NCBI GenBank assembly: GCA_028694115.1
Contig: JAQUUB010000159.1
Coordinates: forward strand, 1 to 7,612
Length of the DNA stretch: 7,612 nucleotides
Origin: Lachnospiraceae bacterium
GTDB taxonomy: Bacteria > Bacillota_A > Clostridia > Lachnospirales > Lachnospiraceae
Direction of reading: 5' to 3'
Of the stretch, positions 1-7,612 are shown piece after piece (the first letter of the stretch is position 1; each line of letters starts with the position of its first letter). The notes under the pieces are model-generated. The model was not told the DNA's origin. It did not search any database and saw only the letters and a list, made by a program, of their open reading frames with translations. The translations under genes were made by a program, and so were the position numbers.

Positions 1-5
1 TTCAT
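1..5 (-). CDS. Start of an unidentified gene running off the left edge (partial)
   Basis: An ATG lies on the minus strand at 5-3, eight bases after a GAGAGG Shine-Dalgarno sequence (14-19). About 50 nt further upstream is a promoter-like pair with a perfect TTGACA. Only the first codon and two bases of the second are in the window, so nothing can be said of the product. The case rests on promoter, dyad, ribosome binding site and start codon being correctly spaced in one direction. The operator-like dyad between promoter and start suggests a gene under its own repressor. It would be separate from the defence-type block upstream of it. Confidence 0.4.
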
Positions 6-13
6 CTTATATA

Positions 14-19
14 CCTCTC
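14..19 (-). promoter_or_regulatory. Ribosome binding site for the left-edge gene
   Basis: The minus strand reads GAGAGG, followed by an 8-nt spacer and then ATG at 5-3. Spacing and complementarity to the 16S anti-Shine-Dalgarno sequence are good. This is the main reason for believing that a gene begins at the window edge. Confidence 0.5.
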
Positions 20-32
20 GTATTTTGGATTT

Positions 33-54
33 TTACCAACTGGCTGGTCAGTAA
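33..54. promoter_or_regulatory. Operator-like overlapping dyads, TetR-type in appearance
   Basis: Two overlapping inverted repeats can be read here: ACCAACTGGCTGGT (35-48) and ACTGGCTGGTCAGT (39-52). Both lie inside a larger imperfect dyad with TTAC and GTAA at its ends (33-36 and 51-54). They sit just downstream of the predicted transcription start (about 55), where repressor binding would block transcription. ACTG/CAGT half-sites of this sort resemble operators of TetR/AcrR-family repressors; that family assignment is inference. No regulator gene is visible in the window. Confidence 0.4.
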
Positions 55-61
55 CAATCTA

Positions 62-90
62 AATTTACTTGAGGTATTTTTTTGTGTCAA
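62..90 (-). promoter_or_regulatory. Sigma-A-type promoter for the left-edge gene
   Basis: On the minus strand a perfect -35 TTGACA (90-85) is followed by a 17-bp spacer and a -10-like TAAATT (67-62; 4 of 6 matches to consensus). Transcription would start near 55, giving a leader of about 50 nt before the ATG at 5. The -35 element overlaps the stop codon (89-87) that ends the residual vsr reading frame, so it lies in the sequence that replaced the lost 3' end of vsr. Confidence 0.5.
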
Positions 91-122
91 TCAATTGATC
101 TATTTAAAGTATACAGGAAGCT

Positions 123-419
123 TTCATCTCTCTTTTGATTTATCTCTATTTTAATTTCCCAAAATTCATGATTGCTTTCCGGTAAACGTGCTTTTTTACA
201 TGTATGCCCATGCTAGAAACAACCATTAATAAATATTGCCTTTTTACCTCGCACAAAAACAATATCTGGTTTACAGTGTAATTCTGCCGCTGACAATCTA
301 TATTGCCGATATCCCAAATCACATAACAGCTTCTTTACCACAGCCTCCGGTTTCGTATTTTTGCTTTTCACTTTTCTCATAATATCGGAACGCTTTTCAC
401 TACTATAAATATCACTCAC
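123..419 (-). pseudogene. vsr: Very-short-patch repair endonuclease (Vsr), broken by an amber codon and 3' truncation
   Basis: Intact Vsr enzymes nick DNA 5' of a T:G mismatch formed by deamination of 5-methylcytosine, and usually accompany a C5-methyltransferase. The frame starts at a GTG (419-417) that overlaps the receiver gene stop by 8 nt, with AAAAGG nine bases upstream. Visible Vsr features are RSDIMRKVKSKNTKPE (an N-terminal RS.NM..I...T.PE-like motif), the catalytic-region KPDIVF, and IFINGCF. Then comes TAG (215-213) exactly where the family has Trp in GCFWH.H.C. In the same frame, after the stop, family-like sequence resumes: HGHTCKKARLPESN, then EFW and a KRDE near 123. After that the similarity ends, and the usual GW.V..WEC tail is absent in all three frames. 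One base change (TGG to TAG) explains the stop; the missing tail is a separate lesion. The product would be a 68-residue fragment lacking the tryptophan and most metal-binding residues. Confidence 0.85.
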
Positions 420-2268
420 TGGCTTTAACCTTTTTAGTCATCAACTGATGCAATGAAATGTCTGATTTAAAAAACAAATCCTCTACCCCTGACTTAGAGT
501 AAAACGATACAAATTCTCCTACTATCTGACGTGTATATTCATAAGCTAAACGATATGGTCGATAGTACGAGAAGAATTCTTCTTTTTTTATTATGCTCAT
601 GTCGATTGAAACAACATCGTGATATTGCCATATAACGTGAACCAGACCCTTTTCATTTACTTCAGGTAATATGGTAAAATGCTGATTATCCTTTAAAGTT
701 TGAGTCGGATAATCTTTAACAATCCTTCCTTTCAAAAACAATATTTTCCCGTCTACTTTCTTCGGCCTTAACATATGGCAAGATGGTACAATACATAGAT
801 ATGCCGTTGATTTCTCATCAATATCCTCTTTCTCAAACAATATATCTCCGGTCTTTAATTTATTTTGTAACAAAATAAATTGTGGATGATCTTGAGTATT
901 ACATTTAAGTACCATAGTATCATCTTTTTCATTGTAGCAATCATAAAATATCTTGTTAAATCGCTGCTCCTCTTCTTCATAAGAAATTGTTTTTAGCGAT
1001 GTAATTAGGTTATTTATCTCATAATCCTGCTCTGGATTAAGCAATGTTATAAGACAGGCTGGTAATACTTTTTTTATTTTTTTCTCAAATTGTATTTTAT
1101 ACATACCACTCAATTCTTTTTTTATTTTATTTTGATGCTGTTCATCTCCAACAAATCCCTGAAGCATTTCTTCCGCCATGTGATCGGCACAGCATTTTGC
1201 CATAAAGCGTCCAGCCTCTTCTATTCCCTTATAAAGATTATCTTGCTTTTTAATTACTTTATTTACAATTTTTTTATAGTTCTCATTTGATATTTTTTTA
1301 ATTGCACTTTTTACCTTGTCATCACATTCCAATTTTCCCAATGTTATATCAAGAGTTCTGACTAATCTCTCATTAAATAAATCCTCCGTTTCTATTAATG
1401 TTTCTAAGGATTCAACTTGCTTACTATAAATACTTTTAAGTACTTGTTCATCCAAATCAATATCTGACCTTATATTATTTATAACCATATCGCTAACCGT
1501 GTGGTACATATCCTCCAAGGGAAGTTCATCTGCATTAGTTTGTAACAATAACAGCTTGTCAAATGGTTGTGCAAATTTATTTAGATAATACGGTACCTTT
1601 TGTTCAAGGCCTGCTATCATATCAATAAAAGCTATGGGGAAATAACCGATCTCCTTAACAAACACATCTGTCAAAGCTTTTATAATCATATCAAAATCAA
1701 ATTTGTCCTTTTCGCATATCATATATATTGTTGAATCTGCCCTTATATATTCATAATTCTCTTTATCCCATTTTCCAGGCAGTAATCCTTGTTTCTTGAC
1801 GCCCTTCATTTCGTTAATAAACTCTGCTTTAGCCTCCACTAATTTAGAGGTATAGATTACACAAAATCTTAGTTGACCCGAAAAATCCGCTTCGTTTAAT
1901 AGTTTTACTGCTGTTGTTTTACTTGCTAAACTCCAATCCAGTATTAATAAGCGAGCATTTTTCATGTGTAATAACAACTGGTCATCTTTCGTACGTGACG
2001 AATATAAAATTGGTGTAAGTAAAATCTCGGGATAGGTGATTTGAACAAACTCACAAAATGTTTCAAATTTACTTTTTTCAGGCTTTGCTGGCTTGGCATC
2101 ACTGTTCTCTATGCTTTTCCCAATATATCTATTACTTTTTGATGGTTTCTTTGGATTCTCCTCTTTCTCTAAATTCCATGTAACCTCAAAAGTATCATCA
2201 ATATACACTATCTGACTCAAATACTCTCTCAAAATCTTAGAAAGATCATGCTTTTGTACTCTACTCAT
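412..2268 (-). CDS. Receiver-like signalling protein with long unknown C-terminal region, partner of the dual-ATPase protein
   Basis: This 618-residue protein has a receiver (response-regulator) fold signature spread over about residues 18-200. Strand 1 is IVYIDD with the acidic pair D24/D25; strand 3 is LLILDW with candidate phospho-acceptor D111; strand 4 is CVIYTSK with T140; strand 5 is IYMICEKDK with K187 or K189. A charged, low-complexity insertion (about residues 31-68) separates strand 1 from the rest, unusual for a receiver. The remaining 400 residues are mostly helical and Lys/Glu-rich, then probably beta-rich, with an IVPSCHMLRP segment near residue 495. I recognise no nuclease, HTH or membrane motif there. 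The ATG overlaps the upstream stop as ATGA and is preceded by GGAGG at 7 nt, so translation is coupled to the kinase-like gene. Likely role: receives a phosphoryl or conformational signal from that protein. Receiver assignment is moderately secure; the output function is unknown. Confidence 0.75.
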   Translation of the reverse strand: MSRVQKHDLSKILREYLSQIVYIDDTFEVTWNLEKEENPKKPSKSNRYIGKSIENSDAKPAKPEKSKFETFCEFVQITYPEILLTPILYSSRTKDDQLLLHMKNARLLILDWSLASKTTAVKLLNEADFSGQLRFCVIYTSKLVEAKAEFINEMKGVKKQGLLPGKWDKENYEYIRADSTIYMICEKDKFDFDMIIKALTDVFVKEIGYFPIAFIDMIAGLEQKVPYYLNKFAQPFDKLLLLQTNADELPLEDMYHTVSDMVINNIRSDIDLDEQVLKSIYSKQVESLETLIETEDLFNERLVRTLDITLGKLECDDKVKSAIKKISNENYKKIVNKVIKKQDNLYKGIEEAGRFMAKCCADHMAEEMLQGFVGDEQHQNKIKKELSGMYKIQFEKKIKKVLPACLITLLNPEQDYEINNLITSLKTISYEEEEQRFNKIFYDCYNEKDDTMVLKCNTQDHPQFILLQNKLKTGDILFEKEDIDEKSTAYLCIVPSCHMLRPKKVDGKILFLKGRIVKDYPTQTLKDNQHFTILPEVNEKGLVHVIWQYHDVVSIDMSIIKKEEFFSYYRPYRLAYEYTRQIVGEFVSFYSKSGVEDLFFKSDISLHQLMTKKVKASE

Positions 2269-5200
2269 ATCTTTGCCTCCACGTTAAATGTAATCTTAAA
2301 ACACGCCCCATTTAGCTGTTTATTCTTTGAATTTGTTACTACTTCGATTTGATGTCCTTGGGATTCTAATACATTTTTTGATATTGATAATCCCAAACCC
2401 CTTCCATCTTTTTTTAGTGAAAAAAAAGGTTCAAAGACTCGCTCTTTATTTCTAATTGAAATTCCAACTCCCGAATCCTCTACATACAGTGCACTATCTT
2501 CTTCAACATAATGAATTAAGATTTGTTTCTCACTTCTATCTGCCACCCAATATATTGAATTATAAATTAAATTTGAAAGTATTGGATAAATTTTGGATAA
2601 TGAGATCTTTAATTCTAAATTCTTATCGACACCATTCACAAATTCAATCCCCTGATTTATTAAACGATTTTCAAAGAATTGATATATATCCTGTAACATT
2701 TCATATATATTAATCTTTTTCTTATATAAGCTTTTGCTTCTATACATTGGCGAAAGCTGATTCATTCGATCTGATATGGCTCTGAAACCCACATCAATCT
2801 GATTCAAATAATAGTTACCGTCACCAGACATTGATTGAAATTTTAGTTGATTAATTGCATCATAAACATTATTAAATAATTGGTTAAACTCATGACTTAC
2901 AATTTCCGCAGCCATACCCACATTAGCCAAATCAGCATACATCTCATTTAATTCTTTAAGTTCATTATTTTGAATAATGAGTTGATTAATAAGTTGTGAG
3001 TCTTTTAACTGAAATTTTTCTAAGATTGCATTCAGTTGATTATTAGCCATTTCATACTTAGAGGTCGTTGTTTTCGAAATTAAATCTGTTGCTTTATAAA
3101 TTTGTTCCTCACATTCTTTAATTTCTATACGAATTTTTTGTATTACTTCTGGATCAGCAGATACGTTTATTACTGAAATATTCCGCTTGATTTGCAAAAG
3201 ATAAGTTTTAATTTTTTCATAATTGGTCATCATATTTGATTTAAATTCTTTGTCAAAACCATATATTTCTTTTTTATATTCTTCTAACTCTTCCGCCTTA
3301 TTTAATAGCGCTGTCTGCTTTTGATAGATATCATCTTCAGCTGCATTAGATAACTTTTGCAAAGTTCCAAGAGTCTCATTTACATAAGTATTTAGATCAT
3401 ATGTTACTGACTCTAAACTAGTACCCATTTTTCTTGAAAACTCTTTATGATAATGTTCAATATTCTCATCAATTTGATCTTGCAAAATTTTGCCGACATA
3501 TGCCACTCTCTTTTCTAATAATTTTATCTTTGTTTGCATACCCTCATTAAATGTGTCAACATCATCAAGCAACTGTAACGGATATTTGCTTTCATATCGC
3601 TCATTAACAGCAATATATAATTGTTTACATTGATTAAGCAATTTGTTTTCTATCTCATGCAAAAAATATTTAATTTTACTACTTTGCTCTAACAAACTTT
3701 TATATTCAATAAGAGGTTCCTTGTCACACTCTGTCCGTATATGCTCTATACCTACAATCACATCCTGTTCCAACGTACTCAAAAGAGGTGGATTAGCCTT
3801 TAGCAAGTCCTCAATCCTTCTCTTTTCTGCCTGAAAAAGCTTATTCTGCTCTTTTTCAAAATTTTGAAGCTCTTGTTTATTTTTCATAGCCTGTTTATTC
3901 TGGTCTATATAACTTTTTCGAAGTTTGAAAGAATCTTTATTCATGTCTCCTAAAAAATCAACAGAAATTCTTATAAGTAAATTTTGGAGTGTCTTTATAA
4001 AATAATAGTAGTATTGATTTTCAATGATTCCTTCCCTACTTGACTTATCCTCCAAATGTGGATTATCTGAAGAAGTAATATCAATTCTTCCAAACATATT
4101 ACGATGGCTAAATAAATAATATGTAGCACTTCTACTCCTTCTCTCTTCCAGCTCCAAAAAATCATTTTCTGGTTCACCATATGGCAATACCCGTACATTA
4201 TCCCTGTATACGCCAATTCCACCTGCTTTGTCCATTCTTTTTTTTATGGTTTCAAATTCTTCTGCAGTTAATCCTGTATTTTTTTTATCCATCTCAAAAT
4301 GGCAGAGCTTAACTGTATATTTGCCACAGTCATCCCTCCGCCAATCTCCAATTCCCGAAGTTACAACGATTCCTTTCCTAAGTATATCATTGCATTTTTC
4401 CAGAATTACCCGATCCCCATTTCTAGCGTCTATACTTCCCTTAAAAATTCCGTGTTCAACATGACCTTCAATTTTTAAGTCATATAGTTCATAATCTTGC
4501 TTGTCAAATCCCGCTGTAAAAACAAGAGGCTCTTCATTATGAAACAATTCGACATGAAAATCCTCTTCATTAGGAGCAAAGTCTGAAAGAAACGCATTTA
4601 AGCGATTATAGTTTCTTGTGGCTAGAACATCCTCCTCTAATGTCTTTGTTTTATCCAAGTACCGTTCCCAGTCATCATTCAAATCTATACAAAAAATAAT
4701 TGTTCCCTGTTTCTTCTCACTATTTTCTATAATTTCACTAAAATCATACACTAACTCTATATCCAGATAAGAATCTGCTATTTGACTTTCTATAGTCTTT
4801 AATTTATCTATATTCTTTTCTAACTTCCAGCTTTCCCTCTTTAAATTACTTTCTTGAATCTCTCTTAATCGTTTCAAAAGCTGAGGTGCATCCAGCAAAT
4901 CCCTATTATATTCTACTGGTATTTCAATATCTTGAATAAATAAATCTGGATTTTCAAATATGTTCCAATTTATATACAAAACATTCCATCCCGTGTTCAC
5001 TTTTTTAGTAAACATCCACATTTGTTGACCCAATCGGGAAACCGCCAAGCGTCCAATGCCTTTTTCGCCCATTAACGCTCTCCCTTTGGCTGTTCTCTTC
5101 TTCTTACTCTCCAGCTTTGAAGGTGTTCCCAAAACTAACCATTTATCTTCCAAATCTGCCTGGTTCATTCCAACTCCCGTATCGCAAATGACAATGCATG

Positions 5201-5357
5201 GACTTTTAAGATCCTTGGTCAAGAAATCTACACGAAGCAATTCTGCATCGGCATCATAAGAATTTTTCATAATTTCCGCCAGTGCAGTAACACTGTCTCT
5301 AATCTGTTTCTTTCCCAATAATTCTACCGCTCTCGCTTTTGTCTTAAATGTTCCCAT
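2265..5357 (-). CDS. Dual GHKL ATPase: N-terminal MORC/Hsp90-like ATPase plus C-terminal histidine-kinase-like module
   Basis: Starting at MGTFKTKARAVELLG the protein has 1030 residues. Residues 1-110 form a GHKL ATPase of the Hsp90/MutL/MORC kind: N-box E28..KN32SYD35, G1 box DTGVGM (59-64), G2 box GEKGIG (97-102). An S5-like region follows, ending near DKSSREGIIEN (437-447), typical of these proteins. Residues about 480-810 are rich in Glu, Lys and Gln and look coiled-coil. Residues 810-1030 are a second GHKL module of histidine-kinase type: H-box SHEFN with H822, N-box SNLIYNS with N933, G1 DSGVGI (961-966), F-box FEPFFS (975-980), G2 GRGLGL (985-990). There is no signal peptide or membrane segment, so it is cytoplasmic. 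An ATG nine codons upstream (5384) lacks a ribosome binding site; the chosen ATG has GGAAGGG 11 nt upstream, and family members usually begin this way. The stop overlaps the receiver gene. It may be an internal sensor kinase or a DNA-responsive ATPase. Confidence 0.85.
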   Translation of the reverse strand: MGTFKTKARAVELLGKKQIRDSVTALAEIMKNSYDADAELLRVDFLTKDLKSPCIVICDTGVGMNQADLEDKWLVLGTPSKLESKKKRTAKGRALMGEKGIGRLAVSRLGQQMWMFTKKVNTGWNVLYINWNIFENPDLFIQDIEIPVEYNRDLLDAPQLLKRLREIQESNLKRESWKLEKNIDKLKTIESQIADSYLDIELVYDFSEIIENSEKKQGTIIFCIDLNDDWERYLDKTKTLEEDVLATRNYNRLNAFLSDFAPNEEDFHVELFHNEEPLVFTAGFDKQDYELYDLKIEGHVEHGIFKGSIDARNGDRVILEKCNDILRKGIVVTSGIGDWRRDDCGKYTVKLCHFEMDKKNTGLTAEEFETIKKRMDKAGGIGVYRDNVRVLPYGEPENDFLELEERRSRSATYYLFSHRNMFGRIDITSSDNPHLEDKSSREGIIENQYYYYFIKTLQNLLIRISVDFLGDMNKDSFKLRKSYIDQNKQAMKNKQELQNFEKEQNKLFQAEKRRIEDLLKANPPLLSTLEQDVIVGIEHIRTECDKEPLIEYKSLLEQSSKIKYFLHEIENKLLNQCKQLYIAVNERYESKYPLQLLDDVDTFNEGMQTKIKLLEKRVAYVGKILQDQIDENIEHYHKEFSRKMGTSLESVTYDLNTYVNETLGTLQKLSNAAEDDIYQKQTALLNKAEELEEYKKEIYGFDKEFKSNMMTNYEKIKTYLLQIKRNISVINVSADPEVIQKIRIEIKECEEQIYKATDLISKTTTSKYEMANNQLNAILEKFQLKDSQLINQLIIQNNELKELNEMYADLANVGMAAEIVSHEFNQLFNNVYDAINQLKFQSMSGDGNYYLNQIDVGFRAISDRMNQLSPMYRSKSLYKKKINIYEMLQDIYQFFENRLINQGIEFVNGVDKNLELKISLSKIYPILSNLIYNSIYWVADRSEKQILIHYVEEDSALYVEDSGVGISIRNKERVFEPFFSLKKDGRGLGLSISKNVLESQGHQIEVVTNSKNKQLNGACFKITFNVEAKI
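2276..2280 (-). promoter_or_regulatory. Ribosome binding site for the receiver-like gene, inside the upstream coding end
   Basis: The minus strand reads GGAGG seven bases before the ATG at 2268, within the last codons of the dual-ATPase gene. Together with the ATGA stop/start overlap this fixes the start and indicates translational coupling of the two proteins. Confidence 0.8.
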
Positions 5358-5368
5358 CTTACATATTT

Positions 5369-5375
5369 CCCTTCC
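5369..5375 (-). promoter_or_regulatory. Ribosome binding site that decides the dual-ATPase start
   Basis: The minus strand reads GGAAGGG, with 11 nt to the ATG at 5357. The spacing is slightly long, but the alternative ATG at 5384 has no purine-rich sequence before it, so 5357 is preferred. Confidence 0.55.
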
Positions 5376-5396
5376 AAACCGCATATACTATTACGG

Positions 5397-5425
5397 GTGA
5401 TAAAATGACTAGAACAATATATCAA
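5397..5425 (-). promoter_or_regulatory. Possible promoter for the dual-ATPase/receiver/vsr operon
   Basis: On the minus strand TTGATA (5425-5420, 5 of 6 to the -35 consensus) is followed by 17 bp and TATCAC (5402-5397, 4 of 6 to the -10 consensus). This would start transcription near 5390 and give a leader of about 33 nt. It lies within the 5' end of the opposing zinc-ribbon gene, so the two would interfere. The -10 is poor, and read-through from the methyltransferase is an alternative. Confidence 0.35.
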
Positions 5426-5767
5426 TTCTACTGTTATAAATGTTTTAATTTTAATGTTTCAGAAACAACTTATAATCTGGATATTAGAAACAATTTAATT
5501 GAGCATATTTTTTGCCCTAATTGCCATGCTTGGGTTTTATGCTCTGACACCAATCTGTCTCCAGCACAATATAAAATAATCAATAAAGGAAATTGGAGTA
5601 TTATTGACGAAGATTCACCCAATAACTCCACCATATATATTAATAAAAAGTACCAGTCTGCTCTAAAGGTTTGCGACCAATTAAATGCAAATAAAATAAC
5701 AATTTCTGACATTCACGATTCCTATTGTACACTTGAAACCATTGATTGGTTTCTCACTCTTCTTTAG
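5405..5767 (+). CDS. Small zinc-ribbon protein of unknown function, antisense to its neighbours
   Basis: This 120-residue frame begins at MTRTIYQF, with a GGGTGA ribosome binding site 4 nt upstream of the ATG at 5405; an in-frame ATG at 5348 would overlap the dual-ATPase coding start and is less likely. Two CxxC pairs, C10-x2-C13 (CYKC) and C37-x2-C40 (CPNC), spaced 23 residues apart, with H41 and C46 nearby, are typical of a zinc ribbon. The rest is unrecognised. No membrane segment or signal peptide is seen. It fills nearly the whole gap between two minus-strand genes of the locus, starting divergently 47 nt from the dual-ATPase and ending tail to tail with a 14-nt overlap of the methyltransferase end. 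It may be a regulator or an accessory to the system; that is inference. The cysteine pattern argues that it is not a chance ORF, but it could still be spurious. Confidence 0.6.
   Translation: MTRTIYQFYCYKCFNFNVSETTYNLDIRNNLIEHIFCPNCHAWVLCSDTNLSPAQYKIINKGNWSIIDEDSPNNSTIYINKKYQSALKVCDQLNANKITISDIHDSYCTLETIDWFLTLL
5735..5753. other. Hairpin abutting the methyltransferase stop codon
   Basis: GAAACCA (5735-5741) and TGGTTTC (5747-5753) are perfect 7-bp arms around a 5-nt loop. The hairpin begins directly after the methyltransferase stop (5756-5754) and lies inside the 3' end of the zinc-ribbon gene. Neither strand shows a strong run of T after it, so it is not a classical intrinsic terminator. 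It might still stabilise 3' ends of the two converging transcripts. Confidence 0.3.
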
Positions 5768-6869
5768 GCTCTGATTTAATCAGCTGGAATAAATCACTAA
5801 AATAAATACCGCTGGCCTTTGCTAAATCTACAGGTACCGCATTACCAATCTGTAAAGCCATCTGTGAATTGTTTCCATGAAAAATATAGTGATCATCAAA
5901 TGATTGTAATCTTGCTGCTTCTCTGGCACTTAATGCTCTATCATCAATCGGATGACCAAATCGTCCTTTTGAATAATGCATGCATCCCCCCGTAATTGTG
6001 GGGGCAGGCTTGGTCATATCCATAATTCCATATACATCCGTATGACCAGTCTTATCCTTGTGACAAGATAATACCAAATTTTCTGGCAAACAAGTTCTAG
6101 ATCCACCATGCTCTCGAATGTATCTTATCCTTTGAACATTTGTATCTACCATGCTATTACTAGCATGGTTAAATACCCCTTCTACTTTACAAACTTCTCC
6201 TGCTTTAAGAGATGGTAAGCCGAGAATAACAGACGATGTTATCCACTCTTTTAAACCATCATCTTTCTTTTTCTTAGCTGGTGCAACATGTGTTTGCTTG
6301 GGCAACTCTAACTTTAAGCTACTTTTCCACTTTTCGTACACATCTTTTCTTATTCCATGAAGTACTAAACGTCTTCTTGTCTGTGGTACTCCATAATCCG
6401 CCGCATTTAGAATATCGTAAATACATTTATATTCTTTTTCAAATTCTTTGTACGCTTTTTCAAAGGTCTTTTTCCCTTTTCCCCTTGACATCCCTGCAAC
6501 ATTTTCCATCAGTATAAACTCCGGTTTTAATTCCTTAACCAATCGTATATATTGAAACACCAACTGATTACGTTTATCTTTATCACCGCCCCTACGAATG
6601 GAAGAAAATCCTTGACATGGAGGGCAAGCAACCAGTAAAAAAATATCTTGTTCCAGTATTCCTGCTATATTTTTCAGACAATCCCCGGATACGTTACGGA
6701 TATCGTCATGAATAACCGGGATATTTTTATTATTCTCACTATATGTTTTTATAGCAATATCATTTATCTCAACCGCTGCCCGTACTTCAATACCCGCTTT
6801 TTTCAAACCGGCGGTAACTCCCCCACACCCACTAAATAAATCAATTGCATAAAGTTTTTTTTGGTCCAT
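5754..6869 (-). CDS. dcm: DNA (cytosine-5-)-methyltransferase
   Basis: It transfers methyl from S-adenosylmethionine to C5 of a cytosine in a specific duplex DNA site. The 371-residue chain carries the C5-methyltransferase motifs in order: motif I DLFSGCGGVTAG (10-21), E35 of motif II, motif IV ACPPCQGFSS with catalytic C85, motif VI MENVAGM with E122, motif VIII QTRRRLVLHG (163-172), a target-recognition region of about residues 190-295 including PAPTITGG, motif IX RALSAREAARLQSF (311-324) and motif X GNAVP (342-346). Length and motifs are complete, so it should be active. The recognition sequence cannot be read from the protein. A recognisable promoter lies about 45 nt upstream. Its partners downstream, a GHKL ATPase, a receiver and vsr, point to a modification-linked system. 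The symbol dcm denotes family only, not CCWGG specificity. The ATG at 6869 has only a weak ribosome binding site (AAAGATGG). Confidence 0.95.
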   Translation of the reverse strand: MDQKKLYAIDLFSGCGGVTAGLKKAGIEVRAAVEINDIAIKTYSENNKNIPVIHDDIRNVSGDCLKNIAGILEQDIFLLVACPPCQGFSSIRRGGDKDKRNQLVFQYIRLVKELKPEFILMENVAGMSRGKGKKTFEKAYKEFEKEYKCIYDILNAADYGVPQTRRRLVLHGIRKDVYEKWKSSLKLELPKQTHVAPAKKKKDDGLKEWITSSVILGLPSLKAGEVCKVEGVFNHASNSMVDTNVQRIRYIREHGGSRTCLPENLVLSCHKDKTGHTDVYGIMDMTKPAPTITGGCMHYSKGRFGHPIDDRALSAREAARLQSFDDHYIFHGNNSQMALQIGNAVPVDLAKASGIYFSDLFQLIKSEPKEE

Positions 6870-6912
6870 TTCAACATACCATCTTTCAAATTCGTCTAGT
6901 AACCCTTTTAAT

Positions 6913-6941
6913 ATTTTATCACAGGTGAATTTTTCTTACAA
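6913..6941 (-). promoter_or_regulatory. Promoter of the methyltransferase gene
   Basis: On the minus strand TTGTAA (6941-6936) is followed by 17 bp and TAAAAT (6918-6913, 5 of 6 to consensus), with TG one base before the -10, an extended -10 form. Transcription would begin near 6906 and leave a leader of about 37 nt before the ATG at 6869. Confidence 0.55.
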
Positions 6942-7045
6942 CACAAAGCTCTTTAAAACATGCTTGACAGATATGATAGCTTAATCATTCTGAATTTCCT
7001 CCCTTATCAATTTTTCGGTTAAAAAAACACTACTAAAGCAACACA

Positions 7046-7062
7046 TTCAAGAACCGCTTGAA
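7046..7062. repeat. Short dyad TTCAAG-5-CTTGAA upstream of the methyltransferase promoter
   Basis: Perfect 6-bp arms TTCAAG (7046-7051) and CTTGAA (7057-7062) flank AACCG. The dyad lies about 105 bp upstream of the predicted -35 of the methyltransferase, in DNA with no recognised gene. It could be a dimeric regulator site; the arms are short enough to occur by chance. Confidence 0.25.
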
Positions 7063-7328
7063 GGAAATCCTAAAACAAAACATCTCTATTAATATAAAAA
7101 GTGTACTATATACCTTATCCTTCTCTGCACTTTGCATTGCACTACTATAATTGCACTATCTTCGACGCAATTCGACAATTATTTCACAATGCCTTGATTG
7201 GGGTATTTAGATGCCCCGCATTGGCAACATTTCCAATTCTGATTTTATTAAAAGACACAAACTGCTCCGAATTGCAGTCTGTCATGTGGCATAATCCTGC
7301 CATAGAAAATAAGATTTGAATAAATGAC

Positions 7329-7345
7329 TGGATGCATTGCATCCA
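7329..7345. repeat. 17-bp palindrome with 8-bp arms
   Basis: TGGATGCA and TGCATCCA are perfect inverted copies around a single central T. With a one-base centre it cannot form a normal RNA hairpin, so a binding site for a dimeric DNA-binding protein is a better reading than a terminator. No gene start with convincing signals lies directly beside it. Confidence 0.4.
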
Positions 7346-7367
7346 TCTTGAATTGATTCTGCTCTTA

Positions 7368-7412
7368 CTGTCTATGTCTGCTTTCTTTCGAATAATATTG
7401 TAACATAGACAG
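7368..7412. repeat. Inverted repeat with 10-bp arms and 25-nt spacer
   Basis: CTGTCTATGT (7368-7377) is perfectly inverted as ACATAGACAG (7403-7412). It lies 22 bp from the 17-bp palindrome and about 95 bp before the probable IS end. No T-run follows on either strand, so terminator function is unlikely. It may be the remnant of a mobile-element end or a structured site. Confidence 0.35.
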
Positions 7413-7505
7413 ACTCCTTTGTGGAATATGATTTTCGACTCCACTAGTAAAGCCTAAAATGAATTCTTTAATTCCATCGCCCCTTTGGGGATGCGGACGA
7501 AAAAT

Positions 7506-7520
7506 TGGACTGTATAACCC
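7506..7520 (+). mobile_element. Possible left terminal repeat of an IS3-family element
   Basis: TGGACTGTATAACCC starts with the TG expected at IS3-family ends and lies 10 bp before the transposase ATG. IS150-like ends have a comparable TG..CTG...CCC look; that comparison is from memory. The gap to the ORF is short for this family, and the opposite end is outside the window, so the boundary is provisional. Confidence 0.3.
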
Positions 7521-7530
7521 TTGATAAAAC

Positions 7531-7612
7531 ATGCGCTATACAAAAGAACAAATATCCGCGGCACTTTTATTACTGAAAGCAACTGGATCTCCCGATAAGG
7601 TAATTCAAATAT
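7531..7612 (+). CDS. IS3-family transposase, N-terminal helix-turn-helix part (partial at right edge)
   Basis: From the ATG at 7531 the open frame reads MRYTKEQISAALLLL, then KATGSPDKVIQI, to the window end. The M.YTKEQ...A..L...TGS...V opening is typical of the helix-turn-helix DNA-binding domain of IS3-family transposases (OrfA or its single-ORF relatives), which binds the terminal repeats. No good ribosome binding site precedes it, common for poorly expressed transposases; an in-frame stop three bases upstream of the preceding codon (7525-7527) excludes a longer start. Only 27 codons are visible, so integrity and subgroup cannot be judged. It marks a mobile-element boundary next to the methyltransferase locus. 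Confidence 0.6.
   Translation, partial: MRYTKEQISAALLLLKATGSPDKVIQI

Follow-up and report, generated by a model that had tools for sequence, protein, structure and literature searches.

The 7,612-nucleotide stretch analysed here (hereafter the window; Lachnospiraceae bacterium, GCA_028694115.1, contig JAQUUB010000159.1, positions 1 to 7,612) carries what is, judged from its sequence, a HEF_HK/Response_reg_2 locus on the chromosome, in which a predicted cytosolic two-component system is associated with a C5 cytosine DNA methyltransferase, a decayed accessory Vsr gene and a small divergent gene. On the minus strand, in order of transcription, lie the methyltransferase gene, a kinase-like gene with two GHKL ATPase modules, a receiver gene and the Vsr remnant. 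Open reading frame (ORF) coordinates give overlaps of 4 nt between the kinase and receiver genes and of 8 nt between the receiver and Vsr genes, in agreement with an earlier description from the letters alone (the sequence-only reading) of four genes on one strand, three of them joined by 4-8 nt overlaps. The gene set and its order, the intact ATPase, histidine and aspartate motifs, and a conserved output domain at the end of the receiver protein are direct observations, and the methyltransferase, kinase and receiver genes can each be read without interruption from start to end. Chance is excluded as a source of this arrangement because of the domain E-values and because the gene order is common to two related loci, L001 and L002.

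The combination has been described before by comparative genomics, and the window adds another instance of it. Both signalling domains were named by Bellieny-Rabelo et al. 2021 (PMC8011034); the accessible part of that paper, to which our statements about it are confined, gives a figure of 91.6% for the linkage between the two signalling genes across 644 regions, with a C5 methyltransferase as the dominant upstream gene and Vsr in 20 genera, most often immediately downstream of the receiver gene. Its authors propose signalling cascades that control restriction-modification (R-M) systems. The window resembles the published system in having both domains, their adjacency, the group 1 architecture, the methyltransferase upstream and Vsr downstream, but differs in that its Vsr is broken and in that it holds a small plus-strand gene unmentioned in the accessible text. 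A tabulation of neighbours had been suggested as a check on the locus as a methylation-linked unit, and the published regions provide it, with a positive outcome: the pair does not occur mostly without a methyltransferase. No experiment on the function of this system was found in the openly licensed literature; since 2021 the pair has been recognised as two-component-like and common next to R-M genes, with no function assigned to it. What is new here is a fold assignment for the receiver output domain, the small gene and the broken Vsr; the predicted toxin fold of the output domain makes the function of the pair open to simple tests.

The kinase-like protein (1039 aa, 2265..5384, minus strand) has the group 1 architecture HATPase_c_3+HEF_HK+HATPase_c, with an N-terminal MORC-type GHKL domain at about 4950-5288 (PF13589, HATPase_c_3, 70.3 bits), a HEF_HK dimerisation/histidine domain at 2736-2921 (PF19191, 44.1 bits against a cut-off of 24.1) and a C-terminal HATPase_c at 2280-2594 (PF02518). 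All three score over their own Pfam cut-offs, the region between is coiled-coil-like, and all seven ATPase and H-box motifs sought are present, both ATPase sets included; the earlier description of a protein with two ATPase modules therefore stands. The HEF histidine is H831 in the numbering of the long ORF, although translation probably starts at 5357 rather than 5384. The histidine motif reads HEFN in the window and in L001, and HQFN in another relative, L030, whose kinase (1684-4644, minus strand) is 25% identical to that of the window across nearly its whole length. The L030 kinase has no recognisable C-terminal G1 box and yet matches PF19191 at 66.5 bits. Differences between the window and L001 by codon position are 369/218/632 of 1024 codons for the kinase, 232/142/381 of 598 for the receiver and 91/53/202 of 366 for the methyltransferase.

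The receiver protein (618 aa, 412..2268, minus strand) matches PF19192 (Response_reg_2) weakly though over the cut-off (28 bits against 27), and the earlier label of a receiver-like protein is upheld. Its REC-like domain covers about residues 15-207 and includes D24, D25, D111 and T140; the phospho-acceptor D111 is kept in 38 of 38 aligned receiver rows. For this alignment (A3) 35 of 60 homologues were taken, near-duplicates and short ones being excluded by hand, and its rows are not independent (P0032 looks identical to L011). The C-terminal output domain (residues 469-593; 490..864, minus strand) lies outside Pfam, and the accessible part of PMC8011034 leaves it without a known domain. It is predicted here to be a barrel of the MazF/PemK/CcdB type: the model has a pLDDT of 79.6 and a pTM of 0.72, and Foldseek and VIA place it among such barrels (the full-length model was also compared). 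Eight output-domain positions are invariant in all 38 rows, the window included (G474, D475, C492, C497, G514, W547, Y578 and G594), and between distant clades this domain is the best-conserved part of the receiver protein. Neither a fold or function assigned to the Response_reg_2 output domain nor, judged by title, a receiver domain joined to MazF was found in the openly licensed literature.

We tentatively favour, with confidence that falls short of even, a mechanism in which the MORC-like ATPase senses DNA and the barrel is an effector. The N-terminal ATPase of the kinase would clamp or sense DNA that is without the methyltransferase mark or otherwise foreign; an ATP-driven change of the dimer would then let the C-terminal ATPase phosphorylate H831, from which the phosphate would move to D111 of the receiver protein. 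The phosphorylated receiver would release its MazF/CcdB-like barrel, which would act on RNA, DNA or topoisomerase and stop the infected cell or the invader, while the methyltransferase would protect self DNA and Vsr would be accessory. Within this scheme the barrel fold is predicted from the model, whereas the trigger, the phosphotransfer, the effector role and self-marking by the methyltransferase are what we infer. Detocs is an anti-phage system composed of a histidine kinase, a response regulator and an effector; the window shares its two-component logic, which in Detocs serves in an anti-phage setting, but has a MORC-like sensor and a putative effector fused to the receiver. It is tempting to speculate, doubtful as we consider it, that all Response_reg_2 proteins are phosphorylation-switched toxins, in which a two-component receiver is joined to a diverged effector of MazF/CcdB fold that has a cysteine-based site of its own. 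Their trigger would be a MORC-like ATPase checking DNA against the C5-methylation mark, and in some Lachnospiraceae-type loci the small divergent zinc-ribbon protein would restrain them. If true, bacteria would here possess an immune phosphorelay whose response regulator is itself a toxin.

Several results weigh against assigning the barrel a toxin function by homology. Although it resembles the MazF/PemK/CcdB toxins in predicted fold and in a Gly-Asp near the first strand, the output domain has invariant cysteines of its own and lacks profile similarity to them: hhalign probability was at most about 1% against 12 MazF-family proteins, and MazF homology by sequence profile was rejected on this comparison. 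PemK_toxin is absent from the best 25 of 43 families listed for A3 and from the Pfam list of the window receiver itself, and there is no conserved Arg at residues 489-492, where the catalytic Arg of the MazF GxRP block would fall. That the Arg is not conserved would also suit a non-toxic DNA- or protein-binding module, and SH3-like barrels are frequently nucleic-acid binders. The locus might in that case be a regulatory two-component system whose receiver controls the expression or activity of the neighbouring methyltransferase and of other R-M genes, a possibility that we rate on the unlikely side and that corresponds to the suggestion of the PMC8011034 authors themselves. However, family scans of the receiver protein and of A3 found no known DNA-binding output domain, a promoter scan of 5300-5800 was at chance level (3 found against 2.8 expected), and the two invariant cysteines, together with the Gly-Asp and the Trp, suggest a specific site.

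The methyltransferase (371 aa, 5754..6869, minus strand) is complete, as the sequence-only reading had it: it matches PF00145 with an E-value of 7.7e-68 and contains FSGCGG, PPCQ, ENV, QTRRR and QIGNAV, with the catalytic motifs present. It is 50% identical to the methyltransferase adjoining the distant receiver gene of another relative, L031. Its company recalls the paraMORC-type GHKL proteins that Iyer et al. 2008 (PMC2292703; statements again confined to the accessible part) found beside methylases, helicases and Vsr-type nucleases. Like paraMORC and other prokaryotic MORC proteins, the window kinase has an N-terminal GHKL ATPase with intact motifs and methylase and Vsr neighbours; unlike them, it has a fused C-terminal histidine-kinase module, and neither a helicase nor a further nuclease family was found among the window ORFs scanned (Pfam, PADLOC). 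On the strength of this association, of the resemblance of the N-terminal ATPase to that of the BbrUII/HgiDII enzymes and of PADLOC REase_II, and of an intact-length Vsr adjoining the L030 kinase gene, the locus could be read as an ATP-dependent R-M system, with the kinase- and receiver-like proteins as restriction machinery, the barrel or Vsr as nuclease and the phosphorelay parts as relics or allosteric elements. We think this rather improbable, given that the phosphotransfer residues are kept in 38 of 38 rows, that the scan gave no helicase or other nuclease, and that the window has a broken Vsr while none was recognised in L001. Nor was a restriction endonuclease gene present among the window ORFs scanned, the next downstream gene being cut by the window edge.

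The Vsr remnant (123..419, minus strand) is a 68-aa ORF (213-419) whose frame goes on being Vsr-like to 123. It matches PF03852 at 72.7 bits and TIGR00632 at 68 bits, the latter under the cut-off of 97.85. The ORF is closed by a TAG (213-215) within the conserved GCF-HGH block, which the intact Vsr of L002 (137 aa) retains; past this stop the same frame remains Vsr-like to residue 99 (window 123), and because the likeness ends there the sequence-only reading had set its left limit at 123. Nothing of the last third was found in the three minus-strand frames of 1-200, a frameshifted C-terminus included. Thus the assignment of this gene to the Vsr family holds, whereas a working Vsr nuclease was rejected on account of two lesions, the internal stop and the lost C-terminus. 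The breakage shows that Vsr is dispensable for persistence of the unit, and it largely refutes the idea that the locus serves very-short-patch repair of the Dcm-Vsr kind, helped by a MutL-like protein, since such repair requires an intact endonuclease. A C5 methyltransferase and a Vsr gene do adjoin a GHKL ATPase here, a methyltransferase-Vsr pairing also known from Escherichia coli (PMC2292703), but besides the broken Vsr, and the lack of a recognised one in L001, the signalling pair is an addition with no role in that pathway and the kinase matches HEF_HK and HATPase_c, not MutL. We consider such a repair unit highly improbable, and the sequence-only reading was right to set ordinary mismatch repair aside. 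The two lesions, and the splitting of the L002 and L032 copies over frames, could also be taken as marks of a decaying, non-functional remnant; with the methyltransferase, kinase and receiver frames of the window at full length and their motifs intact, there is little to recommend this.

The kinase and methyltransferase genes are separated by 369 nt, an interval that is not empty. It holds a small gene of 120 aa missed by annotation (5405..5767, plus strand), which points away from the kinase gene and towards the methyltransferase gene, overlapping the latter by 14 nt. L001 has an ORF at the corresponding site and in matching orientation (L001:9628-9966:-), with 43% identity over 108 aa. That this is a real gene is supported by the homologue in place, by an excess of differences at third codon positions (45/38/68 of 108 in the plus frame, from these two sequences) and by a shared GGTGAT 3-4 nt ahead of the ATG. 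Two CxxC-type pairs near the N-terminus suggest a zinc-ribbon-like protein, which could be a regulator or an antidote. L002 has no room for the gene between its methyltransferase and kinase frames. One scan of 5.8 billion proteins returned no relative but the gene itself among 2 candidates, and there was no match in viral contigs and none in Pfam at cut-off.

Five relatives with a receiver gene were compared (L001, L002, L030, L031 and L032), weak matches in G372, G062 and G1053 being left out of the count. The kinase gene adjoins the receiver gene in four of the five, the L031 contig beginning at the receiver gene. A C5 methyltransferase is visible in L001, L002 and L031 (3/5); the contigs of L030 and L032 end beside the pair, where one could lie. 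Vsr occurs in two of the five, downstream of the receiver gene in L002 and, as a 151-aa gene of intact length, upstream of the kinase gene in L030 instead of downstream. In L001 the receiver gene is followed by a glutamate dehydrogenase gene, and no Vsr was recognised by eye among the listed ORFs of at least 90 aa. In L002 (8893-15009) the methyltransferase, kinase and receiver genes are each broken up between reading frames; assembly indels are a possible cause, since the adjacent glycosidase gene is likewise split. The receiver gene of L032 (792-2423, minus strand) also lies in two frames, and beyond it are a NUDIX gene and the start of a sacsin-like ATPase (weak Pfam match, E 0.02).

The long flanks of L001, L002 and L030, read by eye, hold mainly genes for metabolism, surface structures, transport and regulation, and do not support the defence-island setting that had been expected. 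The proposed methylation-linked signalling or conflict unit fits the neighbourhood statistics of PMC8011034, while the broken Vsr, the lack of a recognised one in L001 and these largely housekeeping-type flanks tell against it. The system is rare in the Bacillota samples, to which all spread figures refer, the proteobacterial members that form the bulk in the accessible part of PMC8011034 lying outside them: PF19191 was found in 1 of 398 genomes, namely the centre genome G001, and PF19192 in 4 of 397, two of them over cut-off; the A1 search found 2/397 and 3/13 genomes and the A4 search 3/391, with G001 positive each time. Mobile carriage of the locus was rejected for the queries used, as the window receiver had no match in plasmids or phages, the L005 receiver and P0059 none in plasmids, and A1 and the kinase none in viral contigs.

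The window contains no Rfam match at gathering threshold and no tRNA. At its left edge (1-60, minus strand) a start-like GAGAGG...ATG suggests that the Vsr remnant is followed downstream by a further gene, which the edge of the window truncates. At its right edge (7530-7612, plus strand) an open frame starting MRYTKEQ, which by eye could be a transposase-like start, runs off the window.
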